From Klebsiella terrigena (GTDB lineage: Bacteria; Pseudomonadota; Gammaproteobacteria; Enterobacterales; Enterobacteriaceae): a stretch of 64,000 nucleotides of DNA. Both the position numbers and the translations under genes were made by a program. Below, one piece after another: positions 717 to 16,479 of this stretch (within the stretch, counting starts at the first letter, position 1; every line of letters begins with the position of its first letter). The stretch spans positions 124,001 to 188,000 of the forward strand of contig NZ_BJNO01000007.1 in NCBI RefSeq assembly GCF_006539725.1, given 5' to 3'. Under the pieces are notes generated by a model that made no database searches, was not told the origin of the DNA, and saw only the letters and a program-made list of their open reading frames with translations.

Positions 717-782
717 TTAATCGCCTGATTTTTTGGCCATCCCTGCGGTGGCAGGGGATTCTTTTGCCTTAAGGAAACCAAA

Positions 783-1054: not shown

Positions 1055-3117
1055 CGTTGGCCTTAGACAAACAACGTTGCGCCGCCGATTCAGGGCGGCG
1101 TGATGCTAATCAGTCTGAAGATGCAGACGCCATCACACACTGGGCGTATTCATGGAATGCGCCCCGTAAGGCCATCTCAAGCCCGATACCCACATACGAA
1201 GAACTACAGCGCCATGATCGAGAGAATGCAGCGCTGGCTTGCGCCCAGGATTTGCTACAAAAGCAATCTGTGATTGTTCGTATGTCGGTAAATGCGACGG
1301 TCAGCAAGCTGGAAAAAGAACAGGGCGTAAAGCGCGCAAATGCTTACCTGGCTAAAACCTTCCTTGAACGCATTCTGCCGCGTATCAATATTGTTTCAGA
1401 GCGTTATCACATTGGCAAAATGACCGCCGATACGGTGCGTCTTATGTACCGCTTTAATCACCTACCTGATATGTCGAAAGAGGATATTGACCTGCTGGCG
1501 CAGGATGTTTCGACGTTCATCACAATGGAACTCAGTAGTATAAACGATGAAATGCCGGATGCCGGTGCGCTTAAGTTGCTGCATACACTTTATGTTCGTG
1601 CTGCTGCCATTACTCATTCATTCCGCCAGTCTGCGCCGGATTATGAAAAGTTAATGCGTCGCTGCTTCGAGGAGCCAAAAGCCGCCGCTTCTCTCGCCAA
1701 AATGATGTCTGATCAGTGGTGGGCGCTTCGCCTGCGCCGCCATGCGTCTGAGTGGCGCGAGCATTTACATATTGCCCTGAATCACGTCAGCAGAAAGGTC
1801 AACACTTATGCCAGCAAACAGCTTATCCGTGACTGGAAGGAGCAGAAGCGCCGCACGCGGGAATTTCTGAAGTCGATGGAACTTGAGGATGAATTCGGCA
1901 ACCGGATTAGCCTGATTGATAAGTACTGGGGAAGCGTGGCCAATCCCGCGATTCGCCGTACAGAAATGATGGTGCGTATTCGTGGATTTGAAAACGTTTG
2001 TAATGAGCTGGGGTATGTTGGGGAGTTTTACACCATCACTGCGCCGTCTAAATATCACGCGACTACTATTCATGGCCACCGCAACCGTAAATGGAATGGC
2101 AGCAGTCCGGCTGATACCCAGGGATATCTGCGTAAAATCTGGGGACGGATCAGGGCAAAGCTTCACCGGGAAGACTTGCGCGTGTTCGGAATCAGGGTTG
2201 CGGAGCCGCATCACGATGGCACGCCACACTGGCACATGTTGCTATTTATGCGTCCTGAAGAAGTTGAACAGGTGCGCGGCATTCTACGTGATTATGCGAT
2301 GGATGAAGACCATGGCGAGCTGATCACCGATAAAGCCAGAAAGGCACGCTTTCATGCTGAAAGTATCGATCCGGAAAAAGGGTCGGCAACCGGTTATGTA
2401 GCCAAATACATATCAAAAAATATTGATGGCTATGCGCTGGATGATGAACTGGACGACGAAAGCGGCAAGCCAATGAAAGAAGCCGCCGCCGCAGCTGCTG
2501 CATGGGCATCATGCTGGCGTATCCGCCAGTTTCAGTTCGTAGGTGGTGCACCGGTAACGGTATGGCGCGAATTGCGCCGGATGGCTGATCACGATACCGC
2601 GATGGGGTTAAGCGTTGAATTTGCTGCGGTACATGATGCTGCTGACAGCGGAGACTGGGCGAAATATATCAATGAGCAGGGTGGACCATTCGTAAGACGG
2701 GATGAGCTGATCGCACGCACATGGTATGAAACCAGCCCGGAATTTAACGCCTACGGCGAAGAAATCGTTCGGGTTAAGGGGGTTTTCTCTCCTGTCGTTG
2801 GCATGGATGTGCCTATTTTAACCCGATTAACAAAGTGGAAGATTGTCCCGAAGTTAGCCGCCGATCAGGCGGCAGCAGTTAGCGGCGCGAATGCGCCGCC
2901 TAGGAGTTCTGTCAATAACTGTACGGAGGGTGAAGCCCCCTGGCGGTTAAAAAGTGATTTAAACCAGAGAGGGTTTGTCGGCTCCGACGAAGAAATAGCC
3001 ATACTGATGCGCGGCAGCGGGCTGATGTATGGCCGGGGAACGTTGATTTACAGGAATGGTCGGTTACAGGAGAAACAGCATGATTCGAGCAGCCAGCGCT
3101 GGCCGGGTTGGTCGTGA
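1051..3117 (+). CDS. Rolling-circle replication initiation endonuclease, P2 gpA family
   Basis: A 688-residue relative of P2 gpA (761 residues), the enzyme that nicks the phage origin, stays covalently attached to the 5' end through a tyrosine and drives rolling-circle replication with host Rep helicase. The HUH metal-binding motif is visible near residue 390 (GTPHWHMLL). The catalytic pair lies in GYVAKYISKNIDGY, with Y449 and Y453 four residues apart, as in P2 (Y450/Y454). In P2 the replication origin is inside gene A, so ori is probably within this frame too. Start ATG at 1051 overlaps the micro-ORF stop. The frame is intact, so excised DNA could in principle still replicate. Confidence 0.95.
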   Translation: MTLALDKQRCAADSGRRDANQSEDADAITHWAYSWNAPRKAISSPIPTYEELQRHDRENAALACAQDLLQKQSVIVRMSVNATVSKLEKEQGVKRANAYLAKTFLERILPRINIVSERYHIGKMTADTVRLMYRFNHLPDMSKEDIDLLAQDVSTFITMELSSINDEMPDAGALKLLHTLYVRAAAITHSFRQSAPDYEKLMRRCFEEPKAAASLAKMMSDQWWALRLRRHASEWREHLHIALNHVSRKVNTYASKQLIRDWKEQKRRTREFLKSMELEDEFGNRISLIDKYWGSVANPAIRRTEMMVRIRGFENVCNELGYVGEFYTITAPSKYHATTIHGHRNRKWNGSSPADTQGYLRKIWGRIRAKLHREDLRVFGIRVAEPHHDGTPHWHMLLFMRPEEVEQVRGILRDYAMDEDHGELITDKARKARFHAESIDPEKGSATGYVAKYISKNIDGYALDDELDDESGKPMKEAAAAAAAWASCWRIRQFQFVGGAPVTVWRELRRMADHDTAMGLSVEFAAVHDAADSGDWAKYINEQGGPFVRRDELIARTWYETSPEFNAYGEEIVRVKGVFSPVVGMDVPILTRLTKWKIVPKLAADQAAAVSGANAPPRSSVNNCTEGEAPWRLKSDLNQRGFVGSDEEIAILMRGSGLMYGRGTLIYRNGRLQEKQHDSSSQRWPGWS

Positions 3118-3196
3118 GTATTTTTGATTTAAGTGTTAGATATTGCGGAACATTCTTATGTTTCTGTTTTCAATTCTCAAAATGTGATTTACTCTA

Positions 3197-3216
3197 TACT
3201 GTATATTTATACAGTT
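3197..3216. promoter_or_regulatory. LexA (SOS) box
   Basis: The 20 bases TACTGTATATTTATACAGTT contain CTG-N10-CAG with an alternating A/T core. They differ from the enterobacterial LexA consensus TACTG(TA)5CAGTA at only a few positions. The box lies 21 bases upstream of the GTG start at 3237, so LexA bound here would block that gene. In phage 186 and Fels-2, prophage induction runs through a LexA-controlled antirepressor gene (tum) in the comparable position. Confidence 0.8.
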
Positions 3217-3236
3217 ATTTGCGTGGGAGGATATTA

Positions 3237-3449
3237 GTGCAGGATTTATTTGTTGAGACTATTGCGCTTCAGCGGATTGCGTTATTTACAAAGTTGGTTG
3301 CTCGGGGGGATTGCTCTGTTGATGAAAAAGACGTGGCGATAGCATGGCTGGGGGAGTTGACGGAGGCGTTATCCAGAAAGCTGGATGAGAATGAAGCTAA
3401 TAGCCCCCAGAGCGGGGGCATTTCACGCGGCGGGTGTGGCTTTCAGTAG
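3237..3449 (+). CDS. Small SOS-regulated prophage protein (70 aa), unknown function
   Basis: I start this gene at GTG 3237 because GGGAGG lies 6 bases upstream and the LexA box sits just before it; the same frame is open further upstream (3108), but that part reads through the operator region. The product is small and helical, with the core IALQRIALFTKLVARG near the N-terminus and an acidic middle. It does not look like DinI or the Tum C-terminal domain to me, but position and LexA control suggest a similar role in prophage induction or in the SOS response. Its last 27 bases overlap the convergent Ogr-like gene. Confidence 0.6.
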   Translation: MQDLFVETIALQRIALFTKLVARGDCSVDEKDVAIAWLGELTEALSRKLDENEANSPQSGGISRGGCGFQ

Positions 3450-3692
3450 ATCAAGCGCCATCTGCTTCTGAATAGGTGACAGGTTGTTAAGCAGAGCCTG
3501 AACCATCGCATCACCTGTTTTCGCACTCGGGCTGAGAGTGTGGGAAAAAGTCAGGTTCATAACAAAAGTATGCCCACACTCTACGTCCGCACAGGCGCAG
3601 TAAATATCAGCAATCTGCCGGTGCTTCCGGTTTGTCTTGCGAATAACCGCCTTTGAGCCGCATTCCGGGCATTCGATTTTCAGCACGCGCAT
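3423..3692 (-). CDS. Ogr/Delta-like zinc-finger late-gene activator
   Basis: An 89-residue protein beginning MRVLKIECPECGSK. A cysteine pair near the N-terminus (CPEC) and a second cluster (YCACADVECGH) about 30 residues later match the Ogr/Delta zinc finger, which binds TGT-N12-ACA sites about 55 bases before late promoters of P2-like phages and recruits RNA polymerase alpha. I chose the start at 3692 because GGAG lies at good distance and the length fits the family. A longer frame begins at 3746, where ATGA overlaps the Q stop. Placement beside Q rather than at the att end is not the P2 order. Little late operon is left for it to activate. Confidence 0.7.
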   Translation of the reverse strand: MRVLKIECPECGSKAVIRKTNRKHRQIADIYCACADVECGHTFVMNLTFSHTLSPSAKTGDAMVQALLNNLSPIQKQMALDLLKATPAA

Positions 3693-3742
3693 ATTCCACT
3701 CTCCAGCTGTCAAAATATGCCTGGATTTTAGCCTTTTTTGTC

Positions 3743-4389
3743 TCATGCCGCATCCTTATCCGTTGTTTCATCTGAAAAATGTAGGTGCAGTCGTGGGGGA
3801 ACTTCAGGATCGCCGTTGATGGCTATCGCCAGGCGGCGCTGAATCGGGCGTACTTCGTTGCGTTTATAGGTTCGCTCTGTCTTTTCCGGGTCGCCCAGTC
3901 CCGCCGCATTTTGCGGCACGATACCGGCCAGCCCGGCCGGAAAGCGGTGCGCATTCAGAATGTCCTGGGCGCTGATGTTCTTCACGTTGGCAAATTCATC
4001 CTTTGCAGAAATATCGCCCATTTCAATGAATTTGATGGCGTCGCCCTCACCACCAGGGATATTCACCAGGATGGTGGAGAAGTTGCCGATCCCCTTGCTG
4101 TCACGCAGCTGCTGTTCAATCTCTTCCTCCATCTCGTCCGTCATGCTGGGGTCGCGGGTGTAGAGGATACCGCCCGTATGCGCCCCATTGTGGTAGTAGC
4201 GACGGCGGAAAATAACGGCTTCACTGTTGAGCAGCGCAGAATGGACGCCGCCGATGTAGTCCGGCAGGCCGTAGATATGCTGCTGCGGGTCGTACATCTT
4301 GATGAAGATAATATCTTCCTCCGGGTAAACCAGCGGTTCTCCTTCCTGTAGTACCACGTAGTCACTAGGAACCGGCTGCGCGTTCTCCC
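3743..4389 (-). pseudogene. Phage portal protein gene Q, C-terminal fragment
   Basis: The minus-strand frame encodes about 215 residues matching the C-terminal two thirds of P2 gpQ-type portal proteins (usual length about 340). It includes the segments QHIYGLPDYIGGV, FRRRYYHNGAH and, near the end, YKRNEVRPIQRR. There is no plausible start codon upstream of the GTG at 4357, and the Q-like sequence ends at about 4385-4400, where sheath-gene sequence on the other strand begins. The N-terminal part, the Q promoter and the capsid/terminase genes normally lying next to it are missing. The remnant cannot form a working portal ring. Confidence 0.85.
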
Positions 4390-4527
4390 TGTCCTTACGG
4401 CGATGTGACCATTGTCTGGAAAACGCGCAAGAAAGTGGAGGTTTACGTGGTGATCCGTCCGTATGAGATGCCGCTGGAAATCACCATCAATCTGATGCTG
4501 GATGCCAGCCTTGAGGGGGCCGTATGA
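4390..4527 (+). pseudogene. Tail sheath gene (DUF2586-like), last 45 codons
   Basis: A 45-codon fragment reading CPYGDVTIVWKTRKKVEVY and ending LMLDASLEGAV. The end pattern (EVYVVIRPYEMPLEITIN) resembles the C-terminus of contractile tail sheath proteins of HP1-like phages, and it is followed with an ATGA overlap by a tube-like gene, which is the normal sheath-then-tube order. The whole upstream part of the gene is missing at the junction with Q. Family assignment is from memory of the pattern and context. Confidence 0.55.
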
Positions 4528-4739
4528 GTAAGCGTATTTCCGGGGCGTCGTTTGACACCTACTGGGGAACGGATTTGATCCACGTCGAAAAGCTGACACT
4601 GGATATTACGGATAACACTGCGCTGGCGCAGACGAAGGGGGTGCCGGATGGCTATGTGGACGGGGATGTGTACCCTCACCGCAGGCACCGCCAGTGCACT
4701 GGTACCGGTGAAAGCGGAGGGGACGGGCGGCGCGTATAA
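4524..4739 (+). pseudogene. Tail tube gene (DUF2597-like), N-terminal fragment fused out of frame to gene J
   Basis: The first 49 residues, including DTYWGTDLIHVEKLTLDITD and ending GVPDGYVDGDV near base 4670, look like the start of the DUF2597 family (tail tube of HP1-like phages, about 150 residues). After base 4670 the frame reads unrelated residues to a stop at 4739, while the +1 frame becomes baseplate protein J. This is a clean deletion junction: the rest of the tube gene and everything normally between tube and J (chaperones, tape measure, V, W) is gone. Confidence 0.7.
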
Positions 4740-5427
4740 CCTCGCGCCGGGATATTACCGGATTCTGCCGGTGGCGGTGTCAGGTATCAGCCATGTGGTG
4801 AGTGAAGAAAACTGGCTGACGGTGCCGGGAGCTGATGAAGAGAGCGACGATGAACTGCGTGAACGCTGCCGTAACCAGTTCAACCTGGTGGGTAATTACC
4901 ACACCGATGCGGTTTACCGCTCCATGATTGCGGGCATTGCCGGGCTGAGTATTGACCGTATTTACTTTGAGCATGACGCCCCGCGCGGGCCAGGAACCGC
5001 TAACGCCTATTTGTTGCTGGACAGCGGCGTGATCTCCGATCCCTTTGTGGCGGCGGTGAATGACTACATCAACACGCAGGGTCACCACGGACATGGCGAT
5101 GATATGCAGTGTTACGCTATGCCGGAAACATCCCACGATCTGGATGTTGTTCTGTACCTGCCTGACCCGGACAACATGCTGGCTGATGAACGCGATGCGC
5201 TGCTGTCGGGGGTGGAAAATCTGGTGCGCTGTGCGTTTCGGGAAAACACGGATTATGACGTGAAGAAGACGTGGCCGTATGGCCGGTTCTCCTTCTCTAA
5301 TCTGGGCAGGGAGATCCACCGGACGTTTACGGCGGTGGATTCAGTCACCTTTTCCCTGCGGGATATCGTCAGCGATCTGAACGTCCCGCGTCTGACCAGC
5401 CTGACGGTGAGTATCGAACATGACTGA
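4672..5427 (+). pseudogene. Baseplate protein gpJ, N-terminally truncated
   Basis: About 251 residues of a P2 gpJ-type baseplate wedge protein. Recognisable segments are SEENWLTVPGADEESDDELRERC near the front and GRFSFSNLGREIHRTF near the end. The native N-terminus is lost at the junction with the tube gene near 4670. An ATG at 4648, in what was tube-gene sequence, could give a chimeric 259-residue product whose first eight residues are foreign. The stop overlaps the gpI start by 8 bases. In an intact phage gpJ and gpI form the baseplate edge. Confidence 0.8.
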
Positions 5428-6058
5428 TTTTGATAAAAAACTGGCCGGGTTAACGCTGCCGTCATGGATGAACAAAGGCGAGCCGCGCAAATTACTGAAT
5501 ACAGCCCGGCTCTACTGGAAGCTGGTCTGGGAGTGGATCACCTGGCCGGTTAACCAGTTCGACCCGCTGACCTGCTCGGAGTCGATTTTACGGCTGATGG
5601 CCTATGACAGGGATATTACCCGCTTCAACGGTGAGCCGCTGTACCTGTTCAGAAAGCGCGTGGCGTATGCCTTTGTGAACGCGGCGGATTCAGGCTCCAT
5701 CGCCGGTTTTATTGCCATCTTTGAACGCCTGGGGATTGGCTACGTGGAGCTGCTGGAACGTCAGCCGGACATTGACTGGGATGTGATTATTGTTCGTGTT
5801 TCGGACAGCCAGATTGCGCAGAACGCAGATCTGATGATGCAGATTATCCGCCAGTACGGCCGTACCTGCCGCCGCTATCGCTTTGAGGTAATGAACACGC
5901 TTCAGCTGTATATCAACGCCGGGTGGAATGACGGGGAATTAGTCTGCTATTACGCCGGGGAATATATCGGCGGGGAAAAACGACTGGACGGGGAATATAT
6001 TTGTTTTCCGGCCAGTGATGGAATCAATGATAACGCCATATTTGGCGCAAAACTGTAG
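5420..6058 (+). CDS. Phage tail protein I (baseplate, gpI family)
   Basis: A 212-residue protein with the gpI pattern: an N-terminal acidic stretch, then LYWKLVWEWITWPVNQFDP near residues 30-50 and FRKRVAYAFVNAADSGS near residue 80. P2 gpI is 176 residues; the extra length is C-terminal and glycine-rich (YYAGEYIGGEKRLDGEY). gpI joins the tail fibres to the baseplate wedge with gpJ. The frame is intact, and it overlaps gene J and precedes the fibre gene in the standard J-I-H order. Confidence 0.85.
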   Translation: MTDFDKKLAGLTLPSWMNKGEPRKLLNTARLYWKLVWEWITWPVNQFDPLTCSESILRLMAYDRDITRFNGEPLYLFRKRVAYAFVNAADSGSIAGFIAIFERLGIGYVELLERQPDIDWDVIIVRVSDSQIAQNADLMMQIIRQYGRTCRRYRFEVMNTLQLYINAGWNDGELVCYYAGEYIGGEKRLDGEYICFPASDGINDNAIFGAKL

Positions 6059-6067
6059 GTATTATTT

Positions 6068-8572
6068 ATGAGTCAGACGGTGATTACTTCCGCCTTTGAA
6101 CAGCTGAAAGCCCAGGAAGCGGCCAACGGTGGCGTTGTCATTCTTGATGAATTTGTGTTTGCAAATATTCCAAATCTGGACATTACCAGTCCTGTTGATC
6201 GCGGTGAGGGGTTGCCGGACGCTGCGCTGATTGTGCATCGTCAGGCTGTGGGTAAAACCGGGATGGTGAATAACAACGCCGTGGTTTACTCCGTGGTGAT
6301 GGGCGCGGATGTGGGTGACTTTGACTTCAACTGGGTGGGGCTGGTCAACAAAGATAATAACGTGGTGGCGATGATTGTTCATGCGCCCACGCAGAAGAAA
6401 ATTAAAACGGCGACTGGCCAGCAGGGTAACGTTTTAACCCGTTCTTTTCTGATGGAGTATAACGGCGCGTCAGAGCAGACCCAGATTATCACCCCGGCAG
6501 ATACCTGGCAGATTGATTTCACTGCCCGCCTGAACGGTGTTGATGAGCGTATCCGCTGTAAGAACATGGACATTTACGGTTCGGCCGCATTCATGGATGA
6601 CAGTTTTCTGGTAGTAAAAGACACCGACAACTATCTGGTTAAAAAAGGCACGGCATACATTGCCGGTGTTCGTGGGGAACTGCTGTTTGATCAGAATCTT
6701 ACTGTTGGTCAGCTACCGAGTAAAATCTGGGTGGATGTGTCCTGGAAGGGGACACTAACCAGTGTCTGGGCGTCGTCAGTGAAACTGACGGTTGCGGAGA
6801 TGCTGGAAAACTACACAGAAAATGACGAAAAGCATTATGTTTTCGCTATTGCTGAAATCAATGTGGACGGGGGAGTGAGTGACCTCCGATTACCCGGTGT
6901 GAAATCAGGAATTGTTAACGAAATAAATAAAAAACAGCCGCTTGATGACACTCTCACATCACTGTCTGGTCTGGATGCCAGAAAGGATATGATCCCTTAC
7001 TTTACCGGGGAAAAAAGCACCGGACTGACTGAATTAACGCCTGCCGGGAGGGGAATGCTCGGAAAAGAATCAGTGGAAGATATGGTGAGTTTTCTGGAGC
7101 TTGACCGTGTTGTACGTGCATCCATTCATCAATATATGACTGATGAAGATTTGGTTAAGATAAAAAGCCAGGCAGGGGCGGAGATTGATACCGATTATGC
7201 GCTGAAGAAAGCAATTAATGATGGCGTCACCGAGCTTTTTTATCCGCCAGTAGCTGGGGTTTATGTTCACGGAAATACACCTGTAACATTGCCATCCGGT
7301 TTTAATATGTATGGTGTCTGTAAACGTCCCTACGTAGTCGGTAATGATTCAGCATTTAACGGGTGCGGCACGGTTATCCGTAAGGCATCCGGAAAGGCAT
7401 TTTTATTTTATATGACAGGTCGCCACACTTTTAGGCAGGTAAATTTTGACGGGCGTGAGCAAAGTGGCAGTCTGACATACGGTGTATCCAGTTCATCACA
7501 AATGAATGGCAGTCGTTTTATTGAGTGCGGTATTTATCGGTTTGGCGTGGGGCTTGGCTGGAGTAATTATATTGCAACGTTATATGTACAGGCGTGCAAT
7601 ATTTCCGGGAATGGAACGGGGGTGCGTAACCTGATAGATTCCCGTGTGATCGACTCTGTCATTAACGCGAATAAAACAAGAGGGGTATCATTACTCACCG
7701 GGGCGAATAATAATTCTTTCATAGGTGTAAGAAATGAATGGAACGGACAGGAAAATTATTATGCTTATAAATCTGTTGAAAATATTATTTCCGGTGAATT
7801 ATGCGACCGCGCAGGATATGCGGCTATTGCAGCTTTAGAAGGGGGGAGCTGGGTTATTGATGGCACCGTTGTTCGCCGGTCGGGCGCAAATGTCACTGAG
7901 GGTGATAATAGCTCCTGTCATTTCATGGTCGTCGGTGACAAAAGTTCAATTACGATGAACGGAGTCGTGACAGGTACCGGGGCTGATGACGATGGCGGTG
8001 GGCTGAGATCACCTTCGTTTATCTTTTCCTCCACGGGAACGGGAAGTTCGAATGTCATTGCTGCGGGATGTAATTTCTTTGGGTTTGTAAAATCTTTACA
8101 CAATGAAAAAAACACGCTTCTGAAAGTGATCCGTTCCTGTCTCGGGTGCCCTGATGAAGTTAATACGGGACTTTCGAAGTCAGTTAATGGACGAGGGTGT
8201 ATTGACAGTCAGTCAGGTGTGCTGAGTTCTGGTGTTGGTAGCGTATTTTCAACAACGCTGGGGAATATATCACCTGGCCTGTACGGTGATCATATATTCA
8301 GAACATTACTGATTGAAGGGCGAGTGAACTCTACTGGTGCGAGTGTTTTATTTCGTGTTCCGTTGGTCTTTAAATATGAGTCAACATATGTTGATATGGT
8401 TATTATCGCAAGTGAAGCAAAGAATTATGGTTCGAGAATAGATATTGATGGTGGGTCTAACGGAGCCTCAGTGCAGATTAAATCTGACACAGAGGGAAAA
8501 CAATTAAACGTGTCAGTCACCAGTATCGATGGGCTTGACCGGCATCTAACTGCAACACTGCTATGGGATTGA
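6068..8572 (+). CDS. Tail fibre / tailspike with probable beta-helix receptor domain
   Basis: An 834-residue receptor-binding protein. Residues 1 to about 170 are the baseplate-attachment domain of P2-type fibres (phage tail-collar fibre family), recognisable from VITSAFEQLKAQEA at the start, GDFDFNWVGLVNK in the middle and ITPADTWQIDFTARLNG near 150. A linker runs to about residue 375. Residues from about 375 to 700 have the glycine, asparagine and serine spacing and short strand-like segments of a right-handed parallel beta-helix (GSRFIECGIYRFGVG, VIDGTVVRRSGAN). The last 120 residues look like a compact beta-rich cap. This layout is that of a tailspike that binds or degrades capsule or O-antigen. 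Catalytic residues cannot be named. The base composition is more AT-rich from about 6900. Confidence 0.85.
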   Translation: MSQTVITSAFEQLKAQEAANGGVVILDEFVFANIPNLDITSPVDRGEGLPDAALIVHRQAVGKTGMVNNNAVVYSVVMGADVGDFDFNWVGLVNKDNNVVAMIVHAPTQKKIKTATGQQGNVLTRSFLMEYNGASEQTQIITPADTWQIDFTARLNGVDERIRCKNMDIYGSAAFMDDSFLVVKDTDNYLVKKGTAYIAGVRGELLFDQNLTVGQLPSKIWVDVSWKGTLTSVWASSVKLTVAEMLENYTENDEKHYVFAIAEINVDGGVSDLRLPGVKSGIVNEINKKQPLDDTLTSLSGLDARKDMIPYFTGEKSTGLTELTPAGRGMLGKESVEDMVSFLELDRVVRASIHQYMTDEDLVKIKSQAGAEIDTDYALKKAINDGVTELFYPPVAGVYVHGNTPVTLPSGFNMYGVCKRPYVVGNDSAFNGCGTVIRKASGKAFLFYMTGRHTFRQVNFDGREQSGSLTYGVSSSSQMNGSRFIECGIYRFGVGLGWSNYIATLYVQACNISGNGTGVRNLIDSRVIDSVINANKTRGVSLLTGANNNSFIGVRNEWNGQENYYAYKSVENIISGELCDRAGYAAIAALEGGSWVIDGTVVRRSGANVTEGDNSSCHFMVVGDKSSITMNGVVTGTGADDDGGGLRSPSFIFSSTGTGSSNVIAAGCNFFGFVKSLHNEKNTLLKVIRSCLGCPDEVNTGLSKSVNGRGCIDSQSGVLSSGVGSVFSTTLGNISPGLYGDHIFRTLLIEGRVNSTGASVLFRVPLVFKYESTYVDMVIIASEAKNYGSRIDIDGGSNGASVQIKSDTEGKQLNVSVTSIDGLDRHLTATLLWD

Positions 8573-8574
8573 GC

Positions 8575-8754
8575 ATGGATGAAGAAAAAATGTTGCCTCC
8601 TTTTGATAAATGGTTTTCTGAAATTGTTTCTCTGGCAAAAGAAAGTAATCTAAGGCCAGTTTATAAAGGGGCGTGGGTGGATTTTTTTGATAATGGAATG
8701 ACACCATCTGAGGCAATATCTAATAATGCCGAGAGATTGCAGCCATTATCCTGA
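8575..8754 (+). CDS. Small protein downstream of tailspike (59 aa)
   Basis: The ATG at 8575 lies 3 bases after the tailspike stop and opens a 59-residue acidic frame starting MDEEKMLPPFDKWFSEI. Small genes in this place often encode fibre-assembly chaperones or receptor-related accessory proteins, but this one is shorter than the gpG/Tfa chaperones and I do not recognise it. The segment GMTPSEAISNNAERL near the end looks helical. It is probably co-translated with the tailspike. Confidence 0.55.
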   Translation: MDEEKMLPPFDKWFSEIVSLAKESNLRPVYKGAWVDFFDNGMTPSEAISNNAERLQPLS

Positions 8755-8793
8755 TCACTCGCACAGTGATTTTTATCTGTACTGGCAGGCTAC

Positions 8794-9516
8794 ATGTGGA
8801 AATACAGTAAAATTCAGTTAAAAGAAACCATGCCGTTTGGAAGCTGTACTGTTTTGCCAGCGCACCCTTGGGTATATGGGCTTGGCCAGAAAACGGAGAA
8901 CGGCACATATCTCAGCCCGGCGAATGCTGTTTCGTATCTGGCGCAGCAACTGGCTGATATCGGCGATATTTCCGATGTGGTGATATTCCTAATTACCGGC
9001 AGCAGCCATGATGATTTTATGCAGAATCTCGATGGACTGGTTGATGTTCTGCCGGTTCCCGCCATGACACAGGTTAAACGACTGGCGCAGTCGGCGGCAG
9101 AGCTGGCCACAGAGAGGATGCTGATCCCGTCACCTGCAATCGCGTCAGTTGCGGCCGTGCCGTTCTCCACACCGACAACACGCGCAGCGCTGAATGCGCA
9201 ACGAATCGTGGAAGGGCAGATGCAGGCCGCATCCGGTTTTAGTCTGGCGGGGGCAAAGGCAGCGCTGGCCGACTTCATCCGGGAGAGAACCGGCATTCTT
9301 GACGAGGTGTCCAGCGGGCTGGGATCGCTGAAGGGGAAAAGCGCCCGTGCCTGGGCGTTCACCGCGCAGGGCGATATCACCACCACGCTGCGCAGCATGG
9401 TGAAAGATATTCCGGCCGTGTCGGCGGTGCATTGCGCTGCGGTGATGATGGTCGGGGAAAATCTGGCAGGACTCAGGGAGATGATACATGAACTCGATAG
9501 CGACACTGGCGCTTAA
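8794..9516 (+). CDS. Phage tail protein, HP1 orf33-like position
   Basis: A 240-residue protein with no signal peptide. The N-terminal part is beta-rich (SCTVLPAHPWVYGLGQ). The rest is alanine-rich and helical, with ITGSSHDDFMQNLDGLVDVLP around residue 75 and a long helical stretch from residue 90 to 200. Its end overlaps the next gene by 29 bases. In HP1-like phages three tail genes of similar size order (orf33, orf34, orf35) follow the fibre genes, and I assign this to the first by position. A structural or tail-completion role is likely; sequence alone does not prove it. Confidence 0.6.
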   Translation: MWKYSKIQLKETMPFGSCTVLPAHPWVYGLGQKTENGTYLSPANAVSYLAQQLADIGDISDVVIFLITGSSHDDFMQNLDGLVDVLPVPAMTQVKRLAQSAAELATERMLIPSPAIASVAAVPFSTPTTRAALNAQRIVEGQMQAASGFSLAGAKAALADFIRERTGILDEVSSGLGSLKGKSARAWAFTAQGDITTTLRSMVKDIPAVSAVHCAAVMMVGENLAGLREMIHELDSDTGA

Positions 9517-10036
9517 CGGCGAAGGTATCCCGCTGAAAAATATGCGGGTCACGCTCACTATGCAGTTTCAGGATAAAGAGCAGTCCGGGCAGACCAGTTC
9601 CACTGCCAGGGCAGAGCAGGGAACGAAGGGCAAAGAGCTGCGCGTATCCGGCGAAGTACCGTTTAAAACCCCGGAGGTGCTGAAGCGCATCTTTGAGCTG
9701 GCCAGCGCCACCGGTGACGATGGCCAGCGGCAGAAATACCGGGTTGCGCACGATGCAGCCCGTGCAGTCGGATTCCGTGAAGCGACGTTTACCGGAAGCC
9801 TGGACGCGCCGCAGCAGGAAGGGCGCATGTCCTGGCTGGTCACGTTCACGCTGACCGAATTTATCAGCGTACCGGAAAAGCGGGAAGAGCGTGCGGCCGG
9901 AAAGGTCTCCGCACAGAAGCAAACGGCGGGTACAGGTGCCACGGGGAGCGGAACAGCCTCAGCCGGGGAAAGTGACGAGAAACTGACGTGGTTTGAGAGC
10001 AAGGTGCTTAAGCCCGTAAATGAAGCGCTGGGGTAA
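9488..10036 (+). CDS. Phage baseplate/tail protein, gpU-like position
   Basis: A 182-residue protein with a conserved-looking N-terminal module (LALNGEGIPLKNMRVTLTMQF) and a middle part, RQKYRVAHDAARAVGFREATF, of the kind found in baseplate-complex proteins that sit before the hub gene. The C-terminal third is a low-complexity A/G/S/T linker followed by a short helix (ESKVLKPVNEALG). It overlaps the preceding gene by 29 bases and the next gene begins 3 bases after its stop, so the three are one translational unit. By position it corresponds to orf34 of HP1 (gpU-like). Confidence 0.6.
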   Translation: MNSIATLALNGEGIPLKNMRVTLTMQFQDKEQSGQTSSTARAEQGTKGKELRVSGEVPFKTPEVLKRIFELASATGDDGQRQKYRVAHDAARAVGFREATFTGSLDAPQQEGRMSWLVTFTLTEFISVPEKREERAAGKVSAQKQTAGTGATGSGTASAGESDEKLTWFESKVLKPVNEALG

Positions 10037-10039
10037 TGC

Positions 10040-11719
10040 GTGAAACCAGTTCAACGAGTTTATTTATCAACGCAGCAGGTTCACTGCCCGGATATCGATC
10101 TGGTGCTGGAGCTGAACAGCTGCGGCCGGGGATTTATCACCGCACAGACGGATCAGGACTATACCGGCAAGCTGGTGCGGGTTGATGTGGGCTATACCGA
10201 TCTGCTGCTTCGCTGGTTTACCGGGTACGTTGAGCGCTCCCAGCCTGCGGAAAACGGCTTCCAGCGCCTCTTCGTGCGCGAGCTGGCGGGCGTATTCGAT
10301 AAGTTGTGGCCATGCTCCATGCAGCACCCGACACTGAAACAAATTGGCGGCTGGCTGGCAGAGCAGAGCGGCATCACCGTTCAGGTGCCGGATGCCACGT
10401 ATGCGACTACGCCGATCCCCCATTTCACCCACAGCGGCACTGGTTTTCAGCTTCTGAATGTACTGGGGCAGGCATTCAGCGTGCCGGACTATATCTGGCA
10501 TCCACTGCCGGACGGTGGATTATATCTGGGTGGTGCTGAAGGAGCCATGTTCGCCGGTCGGGAAGTGGAAATCCCGGCAGAATTTGCCCAAAGCACGGCG
10601 GGAGGCAACAGTATGACGCTGCCGGTGGTGCAGAGCCTGCGCCCCGGTGTGGAGATGAACGGCCAGCGGATCACCCGCGTTCATCTGCATAATGCGGATA
10701 TGACCGTGACCTGGACGCCGCGCAACAAACAGACGGGCCAGCCGTTACAGAAAACCGCCTTTCAGCGCCAGATTGAAGCAGCTTACCCGGAGCTGGCCAA
10801 CGGACTGCATACCCCAAGAATGGGGCGCGTCGTGGCGCATACCGAACCAGTCAGCAGCGGTAATTTTGCCGATCCGTTTCGCCCGCGCTACGCCGTGGAT
10901 GTGCAACTGCTGGACGCGAACGGCAACCCGGACGGCAGCACGCCGGTGTATTCAGCCGTACCGCTGCCGGTGCCGATGGCGGGGCATGATTCCGGGCTGT
11001 TTCAGTTCCCGGCGCTGGGAACGCTGGTCGAAATCGGGTTCACCGGAGGGCGTCCGGATAAGCCTTTCATCCGTGGCAGTCATGCAGACGGTACAAGCCT
11101 GCCTGACCTGAAGTCGGGAGAGCAGCTGCAACAGCAACGCGAAGAGGTATCGCAGCGCGTCACCCAGGCCGGAGACTGGGAACGAAAAACCGATCAGAGT
11201 ATCCGTGAAGACTCCATGTCCAGGGAAGTGACCGCCGATACGGAAAAACGCGAGCTGGTCACGCGGGAAACGATGGTGAAAGCCACTGACAAAACCACGG
11301 TGCTCGGCACGGCGCAAATGACGGCAGGGGCCATTCAGCAGATTGCGACCGGGGATTATGCTGTGGCCACAGGTCGAAATCGCCTGGCAACAATCAGCGG
11401 CGATGATGAAACGGAGGTTGCTGGCCAGCAGACCACAACCACTGGCAAAGGCCTGATAGAGAAGATTGGCGCGATACGCCGCAGCGTCGCCGCCGTGCAG
11501 CAGCAGATTGTTGCGCCGGTGGTCTGGATCGGCTCAGAACAAATAAATGTGACACAACTGATGCTGGACACGCTCGACGTGGTGAAAGAACTGGCCACAC
11601 TCACTGCCAGACATGCCCACCCGGAGACCGGCCTGCCAACCAACGCCAGAGAGATTGAGGGGGTGGCGGCGAAGACCGATACACTTAACGAGAAATACTC
11701 CCCCATCATCGCTGAATAA
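10040..11719 (+). CDS. Baseplate hub/spike fusion protein (gpD-like plus gpV-like, VgrG architecture)
   Basis: A 559-residue protein starting at GTG 10040. Residues 1 to about 260 look like a gpD/gp27 hub domain (LVRVDVGYTDLLLRWFTGYV near 45-65, HFTHSGTGFQLLNVLGQAF near 135). Residues about 260-350 look like a gpV-type OB-fold domain (GRVVAHTEPV, SGLFQFPALGTLVEIGFTGG, KPFIRGSHADG). Residues 350-490 carry repeated charged beta-strand-like segments rich in T, A and G, as in spike shafts. The tail ends with a helical segment. In P2 the hub and spike are separate genes D and V; this single-gene form matches the orf35 position of HP1-like phages and the VgrG plan of type VI secretion. Confidence 0.75.
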   Translation: MKPVQRVYLSTQQVHCPDIDLVLELNSCGRGFITAQTDQDYTGKLVRVDVGYTDLLLRWFTGYVERSQPAENGFQRLFVRELAGVFDKLWPCSMQHPTLKQIGGWLAEQSGITVQVPDATYATTPIPHFTHSGTGFQLLNVLGQAFSVPDYIWHPLPDGGLYLGGAEGAMFAGREVEIPAEFAQSTAGGNSMTLPVVQSLRPGVEMNGQRITRVHLHNADMTVTWTPRNKQTGQPLQKTAFQRQIEAAYPELANGLHTPRMGRVVAHTEPVSSGNFADPFRPRYAVDVQLLDANGNPDGSTPVYSAVPLPVPMAGHDSGLFQFPALGTLVEIGFTGGRPDKPFIRGSHADGTSLPDLKSGEQLQQQREEVSQRVTQAGDWERKTDQSIREDSMSREVTADTEKRELVTRETMVKATDKTTVLGTAQMTAGAIQQIATGDYAVATGRNRLATISGDDETEVAGQQTTTTGKGLIEKIGAIRRSVAAVQQQIVAPVVWIGSEQINVTQLMLDTLDVVKELATLTARHAHPETGLPTNAREIEGVAAKTDTLNEKYSPIIAE

Positions 11720-11733
11720 CCCCTCTTACTCAG

Positions 11734-11755
11734 CCCGCGTAATGCGGGTTTTTTT
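11734..11755 (+). terminator. Intrinsic terminator after tail operon
   Basis: Stem CCCGC-GTAAT-GCGGG at 11734-11748 followed by seven T residues, 15 bases after the hub/spike gene stop. This closes the late tail operon. Confidence 0.85.
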
Positions 11756-12277
11756 GTACCCGCCACCAGACCGCGCCAGACGCCCCAGAATGCCACGAAC
11801 ACCCAATCCAACGCGGGCTGCGCCAGAAATAGATCACCGCAGCAGATGGCGGCACGCTGCGCCACAGCCTGGCAAAATAAATCTTTCCCGGACGAAATCG
11901 GCGCTACACCGCACCCGCCTGCGGTTTTTGGATCATAAAAATTTTTCAGTTTTATTTTTCTTCAAACCGCACCGCCAGACCGCGCCAGTGCTGGCGGCTT
12001 TGCGGAAAACCAGAACTGAAAAGATTGAAAAGAATTTCAGTGTTTTTCAGTTTACTATAGTGTTTGGTATCAATGCTATGCCTTTAATGTGTTGATATTA
12101 TTTATTTTTTTTTATTTTTTTTGGCCTCTGTTAAGCATTTTTAAAAAACCCATCTCCTAACTCCATATGGCTTTGAAAAACTACCGGAAACTGAAATGTA
12201 TAAACAAACTGGATTTCAAATTGATTCATTATCTTATAATGTGGAGGACAGACAACGAGTGACTGATAGGAACAAAC
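11756..12277. other. Non-coding region between tail operon and cargo genes; candidate packaging-site repeats
   Basis: I see no convincing gene in these 522 bases. The first half is GC-rich and holds a repeated motif GCGCCAG/C at 11773, 11820, 11859 and 11982. A 14-base direct repeat, CCAGACCGCGCCAG, occurs at 11766-11779 and 11975-11988, and the second copy runs into an inverted repeat CGCCAG-TG-CTGGCG (11983-11996). In HP1-like phages the cohesive end lies beyond the last tail gene, so a cos or terminase-binding region could be here; that is inference. From about 12060 the sequence becomes very AT-rich with long T runs and leads into the promoter of the cargo genes. Confidence 0.45.
12214..12240 (+). 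promoter_or_regulatory. Candidate sigma-70 promoter of the DprA/HAD-PRTase cassette
   Basis: A perfect -10 hexamer TATAAT is at 12235-12240, 37 bases before the DprA-like start. TTTCAA at 12214-12219 is a possible weak -35, with 15 bases between. The ribosome binding site ATAGGAAC lies 5-12 bases before the ATG at 12278. An own promoter after a strong terminator fits a cargo unit expressed from the prophage independently of late genes. Confidence 0.45.
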
Positions 12278-13135
12278 ATGGATAGCTCTCTTACACTTAC
12301 TGTTGCACAAAGTGAAGCTTGGCAACACGCAGCATTGATTTTAGCCAAAAAAATAGGAGTAGGATCCAAAAAATCCAATGCCGAGTTAAAAAGTTTATTA
12401 TTAAATTTTGGGAGTATACAAAAGCTATATGATTATCACTTTTCAATGATACCACCCGATTCGGATATAGTTTCTAAGCTTGATAAGATATTTTCAAGTT
12501 TGAAAGTAAATTTTGGAGTGATTAATTGTTTAGACGATAATTATCCAGATTTACTTCAAGATATTTATGGTGCTCCACCTGTTTTGTATTATCGAGGTGA
12601 TATTAATATATTGAAACTGCCTCGAAGCATTTCTTTTGTTGGTACAAGGAATCTTGATAATCCTGAACATATTACGCAAGGTTTAAATGCCTTGGAACGG
12701 CTTGTAAAAGCCGGTTTTCAGGTTATTGTCAGCGGACTTGCAAAAGGTTCGGATACGCTTGGCCATCAAACAGCAATAAAACTTGGAGCAAAAACGATAG
12801 CGGTTTTAGGTAACCCTATAAATATTGCCTATCCAGCTGAAAACAAAAAGCTTCAAGAATTGATTGCGAAAGAACATCTCGTTTTGAGTGAATATCCGGT
12901 TGGTATACTTTCTCAAGGCTCTTATTTTGCAAACAGAAATCTCACAACCGTTAGCCTTTCAAGAGAAGGTGTTGTGGTAGCAAGAGCTGGAGATAAAAGT
13001 GGAACTCAATATGCGATAAGAACATGTGTTGAACAAAACAAAACTGTTTATGCGTTAGAAAATAATATTCATGAACCAGAATATCAGTGGGTTCATAAGT
13101 ATAAAAAATCGATTAAAGTTGTTAAGGATAGATAA
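12278..13135 (+). CDS. DprA/Smf-family SLOG-fold protein, prophage cargo
   Basis: A 285-residue protein with all the DprA signatures. These are DDNYPDLLQDIYGAPPVLYY (86-105), VGTR (121-124), SGLAKGSD (152-159), the nucleotide-binding-type loop ending YPAEN (185-189), SEYPVG (204-209), FANRN (217-221) and the closing segment AGDKSGTQYAI. The N-terminal 80 residues are helical, like the SAM/HhH part of DprA, and the C-terminal winged helix of long DprA proteins is missing. Competence DprA loads RecA on single-stranded DNA; outside competence, SLOG-fold proteins of this kind occur in conflict systems, where they are proposed to sense nucleotides or DNA. Codon use and AT content differ sharply from both the tail genes and host genes. 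It pairs with the next gene (12-base gap). Confidence 0.85.
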   Translation: MDSSLTLTVAQSEAWQHAALILAKKIGVGSKKSNAELKSLLLNFGSIQKLYDYHFSMIPPDSDIVSKLDKIFSSLKVNFGVINCLDDNYPDLLQDIYGAPPVLYYRGDINILKLPRSISFVGTRNLDNPEHITQGLNALERLVKAGFQVIVSGLAKGSDTLGHQTAIKLGAKTIAVLGNPINIAYPAENKKLQELIAKEHLVLSEYPVGILSQGSYFANRNLTTVSLSREGVVVARAGDKSGTQYAIRTCVEQNKTVYALENNIHEPEYQWVHKYKKSIKVVKDR

Positions 13136-13147
13136 AGGGAGTTTGCC

Positions 13148-14470
13148 ATGAATTCAAGAGCTATAATCTTTGACTTAGATGATACAATCTTTGCTACAGA
13201 AGAATTTAAACCATACCTCCGAACCGAATTTGGACGAGAAACCATTCCTGGTCTTATTGAACGCGGTGAGATTGAAGTTAGAGAAAGGCATCAGGGCGTT
13301 GTGGAATATATCAATGAACTGATAAATAACGGGATTGCTATCTTTATATTCTCTGACTCTCCCTCGGCTTATTGTTTTGCTATTCTTGATAAAGGTGGTG
13401 TCAATGTAAGTCGAGATAATGTTTATTGTAGTCAACATAAACCTACAGTTGATGATAATAACATCTTTACTTCATATCAAGATATTTTGGTGGTTGGTGA
13501 TAGTCCCAAAGATATATATTTTGCTCATTTAAGGGCTTTCCCCTCTATCTTGCTTGGAAGATTGAGCAAAAAATCCTGTGAATATTATAATCGCTGGACA
13601 AAGCCAAGTGCTATATGTACAAATCTGGATGAACTGAAATCTGCTGTTGATGACTACCTAAATGGACAGTTAGTTTTCCAGCAACATGATTTTAAAAAAA
13701 ATTATGATACCGTCGATCCTGATGAGTGTGAATTAACAACAATACCATCAGAAAATATGGGGCATGCCTTTGAATATTGGCCAAATTCAGATGACTGGGA
13801 TGACGTAGAAGATCGAAAAAAAGTATGGTTTGAAGTAAAGAGATCAATTAAAGTTGCAAAAGAATTAACTCCAAGCCAAATAGAAAGTAGTGAAAGAGTT
13901 GCATTTTACAATCGAAATAAAACTATCGGGTATGGAAAAGCTTTCAAAGCATTGATGTGGGTATCATTCCAGGAGTTTTTAAAATGGGCGAAAAAAGAGA
14001 AGCTAACTGGGAAAATATATTTGGTTCCTACACCACCCTCAGTTCCGATGGAATGTAATAAATCATTTCCGATGCTAATTTTGGCTGAGTGGTGGTCAAA
14101 GTATGCTTATTTTGCGCGGAAAAAGGGTGAGATAAACTTTATTCTTGAACATTTTTACATCGTTGAACGCTTTTGGCCAACGCCTCCAGCTCATATGTCA
14201 AATGGAAGGAGAGAGGTTAGGCCCCATCTTGAGACATTAGGTACTTATAAGAAAATCACAAAAAATGATGGAACGGCTGTAATAATTTTAGATGATATAG
14301 TTACCTCTGGAACTCAAATGAATGCTGTTGCAACACTACTAACCGAAGTTGGAATTTTTAAAAATGAGATTCCTTTTTACGGATACGCCTTTGCTCGAAC
14401 AACACGTCCAGGTGCAGATGTCTCCGAATTGTTGAGGCTATTTAGCGCATCTGAAATTGCTGGATCATGA
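13148..14470 (+). CDS. HAD hydrolase fused to ComF-like phosphoribosyltransferase, prophage cargo
   Basis: A 440-residue two-domain protein. Residues 1 to about 175 are a HAD-superfamily phosphatase: motif I DLDDT (D9, D11), motif II FSDS (S69), a candidate lysine K98 and motif IV VVGDSPKD (D118, D122), so all catalytic acids are present. An acidic linker (180-225) follows. Residues about 255-430 resemble ComF-type PRTases: VPTPP at 293-297, a KSFPMLILAEWW helix at 305-316, and the PRPP loop VIILDDIVTSGTQ at 378-390. The enzyme could act on a phosphoribosylated nucleotide or PRPP. GGGAG before the ATG and the 12-base gap make it an operon with the DprA-like gene. The gene is strongly AT-rich. 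I know no experimentally described protein of this layout. Confidence 0.85.
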   Translation: MNSRAIIFDLDDTIFATEEFKPYLRTEFGRETIPGLIERGEIEVRERHQGVVEYINELINNGIAIFIFSDSPSAYCFAILDKGGVNVSRDNVYCSQHKPTVDDNNIFTSYQDILVVGDSPKDIYFAHLRAFPSILLGRLSKKSCEYYNRWTKPSAICTNLDELKSAVDDYLNGQLVFQQHDFKKNYDTVDPDECELTTIPSENMGHAFEYWPNSDDWDDVEDRKKVWFEVKRSIKVAKELTPSQIESSERVAFYNRNKTIGYGKAFKALMWVSFQEFLKWAKKEKLTGKIYLVPTPPSVPMECNKSFPMLILAEWWSKYAYFARKKGEINFILEHFYIVERFWPTPPAHMSNGRREVRPHLETLGTYKKITKNDGTAVIILDDIVTSGTQMNAVATLLTEVGIFKNEIPFYGYAFARTTRPGADVSELLRLFSASEIAGS

Positions 14471-14650
14471 GTAACTATCCTACAGGCATTATGTCATGTT
14501 GCCCACTCCCACGCTTTGTCGAATGGACTCATGGTCGAGGAGGCTGCTTATTCTCCTCAACCAAACACAATGACTCTGTCGCCATTTCGTCGCCATTGGT
14601 GTTTGATGTTTGACATATGTTGTTGATTTTTATTCTTTTAATTTCAAGGC
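14471..14650. other. Prophage right end: non-coding, ends at rybB (probable attR)
   Basis: No gene is visible in these 180 bases. An imperfect inverted repeat pairs GAGGAG (14537-14542) with CTCCTC (14553-14558) but has no T run. AT-rich DNA follows (14600-14648) and then directly the 3' end of rybB. Phage-like sequence on one side and a complete small RNA gene on the other is what is expected where an integrase used the 3' part of rybB as attB. The core cannot be delimited without the left end of the prophage. Confidence 0.5.
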
Positions 14651-14732
14651 AACAAAAAACCCATCAACCTTGAACCTAAGTGGCGGGGTTGATGGGCTCC
14701 ACAAAATGGGGACATCAAAGAAAAGCAGTGGC
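14651..14732 (-). ncRNA. rybB: RybB, sigma-E-dependent Hfq-binding small RNA
   Basis: Read on the minus strand, the RNA begins GCCACTGCTTTTCTTTGATG and ends in a stem (CCCATCAACC / GGTTGATGGG) followed by TTTTTTGTT, nearly identical to E. coli RybB. The length is about 82 nt, and only the stem-loop bases between the two arms differ (ACTTAGG for ATTTCGG). RybB represses many outer-membrane porin mRNAs through its conserved 5' seed when sigma-E is active. As in E. coli it lies upstream of ybjL on the same strand side. Its terminator end borders the prophage. Confidence 0.95.
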
Positions 14733-14737
14733 ACTAC

Positions 14738-14766
14738 TTATGACTGATGCCCGTAAGAAAAGTTCT
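14738..14766 (-). promoter_or_regulatory. Probable sigma-E promoter of rybB
   Basis: On the minus strand AGAACTTTT (14758-14766) fits the GGAACTT-type -35 of sigma-E, and TCATAA (14738-14743) lies 16 bases downstream and 6 bases before the RNA 5' end at 14732. The layout follows the known E. coli rybB promoter. Confidence 0.65.
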
Positions 14767-14793
14767 GCCGATGTGCATTTTTTTCTCAAAAAA

Positions 14794-16479
14794 TTACTGA
14801 AGCCCTGGCCAGATGATGACAATCAGCGTCCCGGCGAGGGTTAGCAGCACGTTGGCTATCGCGTAGGTCCCCGCATATCCCAGCGCCGGAATGTTGCTGC
14901 GTGCGGTGTCGCTGATAATCTCCATCGCCGGCGCGCAGGTTCGCGCTCCCATCATCGCGCCAAACAGCATTGCGCGGTTCATGCGCAGAACGTAGGCGCC
15001 GAACAGGAAGCAGATAACCACCGGCACCAGGCTGACCACCAGGCCCGCCGCCAGCATCTGTCCGCCGACGGCGCCGAGGCCGTGGCCAATCCCGGCGCCG
15101 GCGCTCAGGCCGACCCCGGCCATAAAGACCATCAGGCCGAACTCTTTCACCATATTCAGCGCCCCCTGCGGGATGTAGCCGAAAGTCGGGTGGTTGGCCC
15201 GCAGGAAGCCAAGCATGATCCCGGCGAACAGCAGCCCCGCGGCGTTGCCGATCCCGAAGCTGAACGAGCTGAACTGGAAGGTGATCATCCCGATCATCAG
15301 GCCGACGATGAAAAAGGCGCAGAAGGCGAGCAGGTCGGTGACCTGGCTATGAATGGAGATAAAGCCGATGCGGTCGGCCACGGTTTTTACCCGTCGCGCG
15401 TCGCCGCTGACCTGCAGAACGTCGCCTTTGTTGAGCACCACGTTATCGTCAATCGGCATCTCAATCTGGCTGCGGATCACGCGGTTTAAGAAACAGCCGT
15501 GATCGGTCAGCTTCAGCTGGGCGAGACGACGGCCCACCGCATTGTGGTTTTTCACCACAATCTCTTCGGTGACGATGCGCATATCCAGCAGGTCGCGGTC
15601 GAAGACCTCCTTGCCGTTGCGAAAGCTGGGGTCGAGGCGGGCGTGGGCGTCCGGATAGCCCACCAGCGCGATATCATCCCCTTTCTGCAGCACCGCATCG
15701 CCGTCCGGGTTGGCCAGAATGCCGTTACGCCGAATACGTTCGATATAGCAGCCGGTCTGACGGTAGATGCCCAGCTCGCGCAGATTTTTACCGTCCGCCC
15801 AGGCCACCAGCTCCGGGCCAACGCGATAGGCGCGGATCACCGGCAGATAGACCTTGCGCTTGGAGTCGGTATCCAGCCCGCGCTCGCGGGCAATCTGCTG
15901 GGCGCTGGTTTGCAGATCCTGATGCTGCAGCTTGGGCATATAGCGCGCGCCGACGATCAGGCTCACCAGGCCAACCAGATAGGTCAGGGCGTAGCCGAGG
16001 CTCAGATGATCGAGCGAAAGCGCCAGCTGGTCGGCGGGCAGACCGAAATGGCGCAGAGTGTCGCCAGCGCCCACCAGCACTGGCGTGGAGGTCATGGCGC
16101 CGGCGAGCATCCCTGCGGTCAGGCCGATATCCCAGCCGAAGAGTTTACCCAGCCCTAAGGCCAGCAGCATCGCGCTGCCGACCATCACCAGGGCGAGCAT
16201 CAAATAGTTTTTCCCGTCGCGGAAAAAAATAGAAAAAAAGTTGGGGCCGGCTTCGACGCCGACGCAAAAAATAAACAACATGAAGCCCAGATTCAGCGCG
16301 TCAGTGTTAATACTGAAATGCTGCTGGCCTAATAATAAGGAAACCACTAAAACGCCAATGGAATTACCAAGTTGTACTGACCCGAGGCGCAGTTTCCCGA
16401 GACAAAGACCGAGTGCAAGGACAACGAATAATAACAGGATGTAATTCCCGTTTAACAAATCTGCGACGTTTATATTCAC
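14794..16479 (-). CDS. ybjL: Putative transport protein YbjL (AAE family)
   Basis: A 561-residue inner membrane protein, the same length as E. coli YbjL. I start at GTG 16477-16479 ([18 protein letters not shown]), matching E. coli; an upstream extension of the frame to 16596 is not native. The N-terminal half has hydrophobic segments ([15 protein letters not shown]). Two RCK_C/TrkA-C domains follow at roughly residues 200-380 ([36 protein letters not shown]). A second membrane half ends with [19 protein letters not shown]. This belongs to the aspartate:alanine exchanger family, but the substrate of YbjL is not established. Confidence 0.95.

Follow-up and report, generated by a model that had tools for sequence, protein, structure and literature searches.

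Gene pairs that combine a DprA-like protein with a phosphoribosyltransferase (PRTase) are described in several published accounts. In Rousset 2022 (PMC9122126), Escherichia coli carrying a DprA+PRTase pair taken from a P2 hotspot was protected from T7 and from lambda; the authors proposed DprA as the sensor, and HAD stands among the abbreviations of the figure on this clone. This system is very probably of the ShosTA kind. According to a review, ShosT acts as a phosphoribosyltransferase and pyrophosphatase and so disturbs purine metabolism, and ShosA is a DNA-binding antitoxin, with T7 Gp0.7 as a trigger (PMC12593503). A Pseudomonas Pf phage also has an annotated ShosTA (PMC11878078). For RqlHI, genotoxicity is reported to require the PRTase domain; a mutant in an aspartate of the phosphoribosyl pyrophosphate (PRPP) pocket loses most of it, and the DprA-like partner restrains it. 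DprA homologues are described as antitoxins in shosTA, syrTA and rqlHI. Here we compare with these systems a gene pair in a 64,000-nucleotide stretch of the 5.5-Mb Klebsiella terrigena genome (contig C7, positions 124001-188000; hereafter the window). The pair is probably a divergent toxin-antitoxin module for phage defence, of the ShosTA or DprA-PRTase type; a decayed P2-like prophage has it as cargo at its attachment end.

An initial annotation of this locus, made from the sequence alone, had named it as a candidate prophage-borne defence pair, which the ShosA and ShosT profiles of PADLOC and the tested relatives bear out. It knew of no tested system with this pairing, and here the DprA+PRTase clone of Rousset 2022 (PMC9122126) and the work on ShosTA as a toxin-antitoxin system (PMC12593503) correct it. 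It had also cast the DprA-like protein as a sensor and the HAD-PRTase as an effector; antitoxin and toxin, as in ShosTA, appear to be the better terms, and what is described of RqlHI points the same way. Overall, its observations were confirmed and its interpretation was partly supported.

Results

The first gene of the pair (12278..13135, plus strand) encodes P0001, a DprA/ShosA-like protein of 285 amino acids and the candidate antitoxin. The second (13148..14470, plus strand) encodes P0002, a HAD-PRTase fusion of 440 amino acids and the candidate ShosT-like toxin. The two open reading frames (ORFs) are 12 bases apart. Residues 78-278 of P0001 form a DprA core (Pfam PF02481, E 3.8e-49), behind which only seven residues follow, so that there is no room for a C-terminal winged helix. 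The other DprA match of the genome is an open frame of 393 amino acids, probably the housekeeping gene. In PADLOC, P0001 matches ShosA (PDLC03961, E 1.4e-54) and also PsyrA (5e-18), which makes it a DprA of the ShosA type.

The HAD half of P0002 covers approximately residues 1-165 (13148..13642, plus strand; boundary set by eye) and carries D9, D11, S69, K98, D118 and D122, which are invariant across the aligned relatives. The PRPP loop VIILDDIVTSGTQ at residues 378-390 (14279..14317, plus strand) is likewise invariant at every position except L381 and I384. Invariance was judged in two overlapping alignments of six and three sequences. Pfam recognizes the two halves with E values of 0.001 (PF00156) and 0.0027 (HAD_2), both below the curated cut-offs, and PADLOC matches residues 253-421, in the PRTase half, to ShosT (PDLC03962, E 5.2e-12, 44 bits). 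A ShosT-type PRTase with an intact PRPP loop is therefore encoded next to a ShosA-type gene, as in DprA-PRTase toxin-antitoxin systems, or ShosTA in the broad sense. The 12-base spacing, the DprA core lacking a winged helix, HAD residues D9, D11, S69, D118 and D122 and the intact loop had all been read correctly in the initial annotation.

There is no helicase domain among the profile matches of P0001 or P0002, and the pair therefore lacks the helicase-PRTase fusion that marks RqlHI and PsyrTA. A PRTase retron, which would have a reverse transcriptase and ncRNA beside the PRTase, was considered and provisionally rejected for the pair; no reverse transcriptase was found among the profile matches of its proteins, the ORFs of the prophage having been scanned in part, and RybB was the sole Rfam match at the gathering threshold in 11700-14900.

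The pair stands out by its base composition. Its G+C content (GC) is 0.36, and at third codon positions (GC3) the two genes have 0.22 and 0.27, whereas the values are 0.69-0.80 for 12 host genes and 0.45-0.68 for seven prophage genes chosen for comparison, in line with the earlier claim that the pair is more AT-rich than both. The most AT-rich stretches of the pair's length all overlap the pair, and none of the equal-length stretches outside it comes within 0.02 of its GC (whole window, step 50). A promoter of the pair's own behind a strong terminator had been proposed as well. A terminator-like hairpin is present at 11732..11750 (plus strand), after the last prophage late gene, in a region where the terminator scan returned three sites against a shuffle mean of 2.7 and hence no excess. 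The promoter is left unsupported by the scan, which returned 10 sites against 9.0 in shuffles, again no excess, and none of its four plus-strand sites lies upstream of the DprA gene. A better leader candidate than these sites is a non-coding block (11859..12053, plus strand) common to prophages with other cargo behind it.

Ratios of non-synonymous to synonymous substitution (dN/dS) of 0.00-0.23 in 12 comparisons covering all parts of the pair, rough values as each comparison holds 0-8 non-synonymous changes, point roughly to purifying selection on the DprA gene and on both halves of the HAD-PRTase gene. Chance ORFs were rejected as an explanation, both ORFs being conserved in relatives.

Near-identical pairs lie on five IMG/VR contigs, where the identity is 96-99% at the HAD-PRTase, which a contig end truncates in one case, and 98-99% at DprA. 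Among the matches listed in a DNA search of E. coli genomes, the best 30 of 5370 matching genomes, at least four of 5426 genomes carry the pair (H1-H4; 71% covered, 65.5% identity), and coverage of 80% or more is reached nowhere; most of the other genomes must match only the ybjL/rybB flank. The E. coli DprA is 62% and the HAD-PRTase 52% identical to that of the window, and the pair adjoins mntR in all three regions opened in this respect. More distant is a HAD-PRTase of Proteus cibi (L019), 49% identical to P0002 and encoded among genes that, judged by eye, resemble a conjugation cluster. The contig also carries, at a distance of about 14 kb, a ShosA-type DprA gene preceded by a gene for a second, unlike HAD-PRTase, P0014. 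A conjugative plasmid of Rhizobium encodes a relative of the latter (P0018, 46% identity), with a ShosA-type DprA behind it that occupies two overlapping frames; the matches of P0014 and P0018 to the ShosT profile are weak (2.9e-8 and 1.4e-8). In Deinococcus, P0016 (472 amino acids) is a HAD of the same kind fused to DprA (PF13419, 2.1e-15; PF02481, 1.8e-52), and no PRTase was found near it in the three of five annotated genes scanned (6.4 kb; of the helicase, the last 594 residues only). A DprA gene is adjacent in five of the six lineages with an intact HAD, namely the window clade, E. coli, Proteus P0014, Rhizobium P0018 and G527, with Proteus L019 as the exception. Among the lineages found, the two genes are thus not mostly apart; a prevalence of separate genes is what the initial annotation had named as speaking against its proposal.

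Several of these loci have features of their own. On plasmid pRlX1 of Rhizobium beringeri (L064:4001-8165), two toxin-like paralogues, one an intact HAD-PRTase and the other of the ShosT type without HAD motifs, stand around one DprA. The Deinococcus wulumuqiensis gene is on the non-mobilizable plasmid pDrdI (L065:2998-4416), after a helicase gene and an apparent coiled-coil gene. In G527 (L032:708-2163), a HAD ORF and a PRTase ORF precede DprA; these two are in different frames that meet near a T run, and the PRTase ORF ends in zinc ribbons. Salmonella phage SopEPhi (L017:3166-4714) has the reverse order, PRTase then DprA, by the portal gene, and the ShosT and ShosA models match both.

The P0002 family is rare: the A3 profile found it in its own genome and in one other (G640) among 392 family genomes, and in its own genome alone among 398 phylum genomes. 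Protein searches with P0002 (E 1e-5) gave no match in 50,697 phage or 72,556 plasmid records, and the DNA of the pair was likewise absent from the 72,556 plasmid records. Among 394 order genomes, P0002 found its own and one weak match of 31% identity in G167, by eye an ordinary comF-like gene, and a scan of genome contigs returned at least one relative. No relatives of P0003 or of the L019 protein appeared in viral contigs, in scans that detect close relatives only; P0014 had none in 275 order genomes, which need not include its own and so say little, nor in phage records, and a tail protein of the window had none in three viral records, an uninformative result. A search of 246 family genomes with the ShosT family model gave 28 genomes with a match at 1e-6, five of them below 1e-45. 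The 28 are not a count of ShosTA pairs, as the model also matches five of 14 control genomes and weak matches are therefore not ShosTA; the loci opened were the five below 1e-45 and L032, L034 and L044.

This distribution bears on whether the pair could be an accessory of nucleotide salvage or DNA uptake, of ComF/DprA type and with no role in defence. ComF-type PRTases (PMC9005727) and DprA (PMC9122126) are described as serving transformation, and ComF models match P0002 weakly (TIGR00201, 18 bits). However, the 44 bits of the ShosT profile are higher, if only as a guide between different libraries. The named contexts, moreover, are mobile or extrachromosomal (prophage in the window and E. coli, apparent conjugation cluster in Proteus, conjugative plasmid in Rhizobium, non-mobilizable plasmid in Deinococcus), and the P0002 family, seen in two of 392 family genomes, is rare. 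We consider an uptake role very improbable, and competence genes were rejected as the identity of the pair.

The HAD motifs DxD and GDxxxD were scored in 18 proteins. They are intact in seven (window, E. coli, two of Proteus, Rhizobium, G527 and Deinococcus) and lost in four, the ShosT of known structure (P0005), L027, L029 and P0019. In the other seven, the ORF of the PRTase includes no HAD; G527, whose HAD is in the neighbouring ORF, is one of them. Six PRTases (P0007, P0009, P0011, L028, L030 and L031) are short, HAD-less and encoded beside DprA. By sequence, the HAD is tied to the system by more than one route, being fused to the PRTase in the window and to DprA in Deinococcus. The HAD_2 matches of P0014, P0016 and P0013 begin at profile positions 68-82, so that the large cap seems to be absent from these proteins. 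Capless HADs often act on large substrates, and DNA ends therefore stay among the possible targets. A profile built from five HAD-less ShosT PRTases gave P0003, the L019 protein and P0002 scores of 16-18.5 bits and listed neither the comF control nor P0005, L027, L029, P0019, P0014, P0018, P0013 and P0016; it cannot order the proteins because ShosT-type proteins and control alike are unlisted. The shared HAD-PRTase layout of P0002 and the solved ShosT may go back to one old fusion or to two, the profiles compared being shallow and the distance too great for an alignment to be secure over the full length. The literature consulted, mostly open papers and without Pu et al. 2025, held no description of this split between intact and degenerate HADs, which is a weak negative.

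These data also allow the HAD half to be seen as purely structural, with ancestral motifs merely kept and no enzymatic part in defence. The loss of the motifs in all four ShosT-type HAD-PRTases compared fits this, as do the six short PRTases that do without a HAD. By contrast, DxD and GDxxxD are intact in all seven proteins of the other group, and we regard a structural HAD half as rather unlikely.

The pair lies at the rybB end of a P2-like element. An 18-bp repeat at 14647..14664 has its second copy near the integrase (L007:12412-12429), and the element between the repeats spans about 20.3 kb (C7:118412-138664). The right repeat is overlapped by the terminator end of the host small RNA gene rybB (14651..14729, minus strand; RF00110, 104 bits). 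Genes beside the element (ybjL, ybjM, grxA etc.) are in enterobacterial order, as in the E. coli locus. In the element, Pfam recognizes an integrase, CI and gpA, along with part of a portal gene and, weakly, a baseplate gene; the integrase and CI lie just left of the window in L007. The initial annotation had thus rightly placed the pair at the end of a P2-like prophage. Positions 1-14664 of the window hold tail/baseplate-type genes and the portal piece in the ORF lists. No other head genes were seen in these lists, whose ORFs were scanned in part, and the prophage is therefore apparently defective. At the same rybB site in L062, the piece opened has head genes and few tail genes, as if the other half had been lost.

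The site behind the non-coding block looks like a variable cargo slot because the cargo there differs. The block is 93% identical in L002 and 85% in L001, L060, L061 and L062, and 515 of 5426 E. coli genomes match the stretch 11855-12060, with coverage of at least 80% in 38 of these. In the five E. coli regions opened, the block is followed in L001, L060 and L061 by the same pair, in L002 by a PIN-domain gene and in L062 by two small genes, and in L002, L060, L061 and L062 it is preceded by a gene 68-69% identical to the baseplate-type gene of the window. A DUF6680 gene follows the E. coli pair (L001:14745-15452 and its equivalents in L060 and L061); no ORF of its size lies between the pair and rybB in the window.

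Next to this prophage's integrase gene, two minus-strand genes, both AT-rich, match candidate defence families of PADLOC, L007:13636-14007 PDC-M11B (1e-48) and L007:13985-15070 PDC-M11A (7e-136). Their neighbour, L007:15085-16224, has no PADLOC or Pfam match.

In a 9-kb IMG/VR remnant (L009), the match to the baseplate gene is broken into three pieces, and the pair has both of its ORFs at full length. Together with the purifying selection, this suggests that the pair is maintained in its own right.

Discussion

The assignment of the pair to the ShosTA kind builds on the gene pair and its motifs, the relation to the ShosA and ShosT profiles, the prophage setting and the conservation of both genes, all observed here. 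Several findings weigh against it. The full-length ShosT model of PADLOC (PDLC03012) and the sequences of the Protein Data Bank (PDB) give no match to P0002; compared directly with the solved ShosT, P0002 reaches an hhalign probability of 8.5 over 33 columns and a BLASTP E value of 0.046, and P0001 is only 27% identical, over the core, to the DprA of phage 10W. The Proteus L019 HAD-PRTase lacks a DprA in the 8 kb to each side of it, which speaks against a strict pair. As for the HAD, it is the degenerate form, that of the solved ShosT, for which there is experimental support in defence, so that the HAD may not matter for defence, as would be expected if it were structural.

The solved ShosT is encoded by P2-like phages 10W and P2_4C9. 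The second protein of the pair does not differ between the two phages and is, by sequence, the ShosT of PDB entries 8zvb-8zvd, 9w2p and 9w2q (sequence search, E 7.1e-294); the 10W pair occurs in 30 of 5426 E. coli genomes. An N-terminal HAD-like domain, a feature of this subtype, is recognized weakly by Pfam in both P0002 and P0005 (for the latter PF00702, E 0.00029, below cut-off). Membership of the window pair in the solved P2-hotspot subtype (PDLC02997 and PDLC03012) was nevertheless rejected on the missing PDLC03012 and PDB matches and the hhalign value.

The solitary Proteus gene would be easier to understand if the HAD-PRTase were harmless alone, as in a direct sensor-effector pair in which the enzyme is switched on by a DprA/SLOG protein that has bound phage DNA or a nucleotide. 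The sensor role proposed for DprA by Rousset 2022 (PMC9122126) agrees with such a scheme. Yet DprA homologues are described as antitoxins in shosTA, syrTA and rqlHI, and another DprA is encoded some 14 kb away on the Proteus contig; we therefore think a sensor-effector pair unlikely.

For a toxin-antitoxin module, toxicity, its neutralisation and defence are expected by analogy with the studied systems. The toxin would be the HAD-PRTase. Its PRTase half would bind PRPP, and its HAD half is probably an active phosphatase whose substrate would be the PRTase product, another nucleotide or a DNA end; the motifs suggest an active HAD that could cooperate with the PRTase. The activity would upset the nucleotide pool and damage DNA, and the DprA-like protein would bind DNA and either restrain the toxin or offset its damage. 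Phage infection would then break the balance between toxin and antitoxin, leaving a cell that no longer supports the phage.

It is tempting to speculate, tentatively, that the full form of the family comprises DprA, a PRTase and a catalytic HAD, two enzymes acting in sequence, and that the studied ShosT is a reduced form in which one enzyme was lost. The PRTase would make or exchange a phosphoribosyl product and the HAD would take off its phosphate, so that a nucleoside-like product might drain PRPP or nucleotides, or a DNA end might be altered. The Deinococcus HAD-DprA fusion and the intact and degenerate HAD-PRTases around the Rhizobium DprA fit this form.

What is described of ShosT-type toxin action on the cell comes from few studies, and the HAD motifs of the solved example are gone. 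Relatives with an intact HAD, one of them fused to DprA, indicate that the HAD is part of the system, and its role is testable by single catalytic mutants. For annotation, a caution follows from the fact that profiles recognized the toxin of the window through its PRTase half only. Taken together, the pair is real, probably functional in defence and of a kind already known, from which the variant with an intact HAD differs.

Among systems that share single traits with the pair, Ter systems also include HAD genes. A nucleotide-type product has been proposed for Ter PRTases (PMC5512222), a likeness to the window pair, which differs in its DprA partner. RqlHI and PsyrTA resemble the window pair in that a PRTase toxin domain is described, for RqlHI, as restrained by a DprA-like protein, but the PRTase of RqlH is fused to a RecQ-type helicase, whereas the window pair is without a helicase. 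In the compact ShosTA systems of Burkholderia phage Mana, Pseudomonas phage Riah and family genomes L028, L030 and L031, a ShosA-type DprA adjoins a ShosT-type PRTase as in the window, but these PRTases have 201-225 amino acids and no HAD half. The solved ShosTA (PDLC02997/PDLC03012; PDB 8zva-8zvd, 9vzo, 9w2p and 9w2q) shares with the window pair a DprA-like gene followed by a HAD-PRTase gene, carried as cargo of a P2-like element. Against this likeness, the DprA proteins are 27% identical over the core and the toxins alignable only at the PRPP loop. The cargo of 10W and P2_4C9 lies beside gpA and that of the window at the attachment end, and the catalytic motifs of the HAD, degenerate in the solved ShosT, are intact in the toxin of the window.

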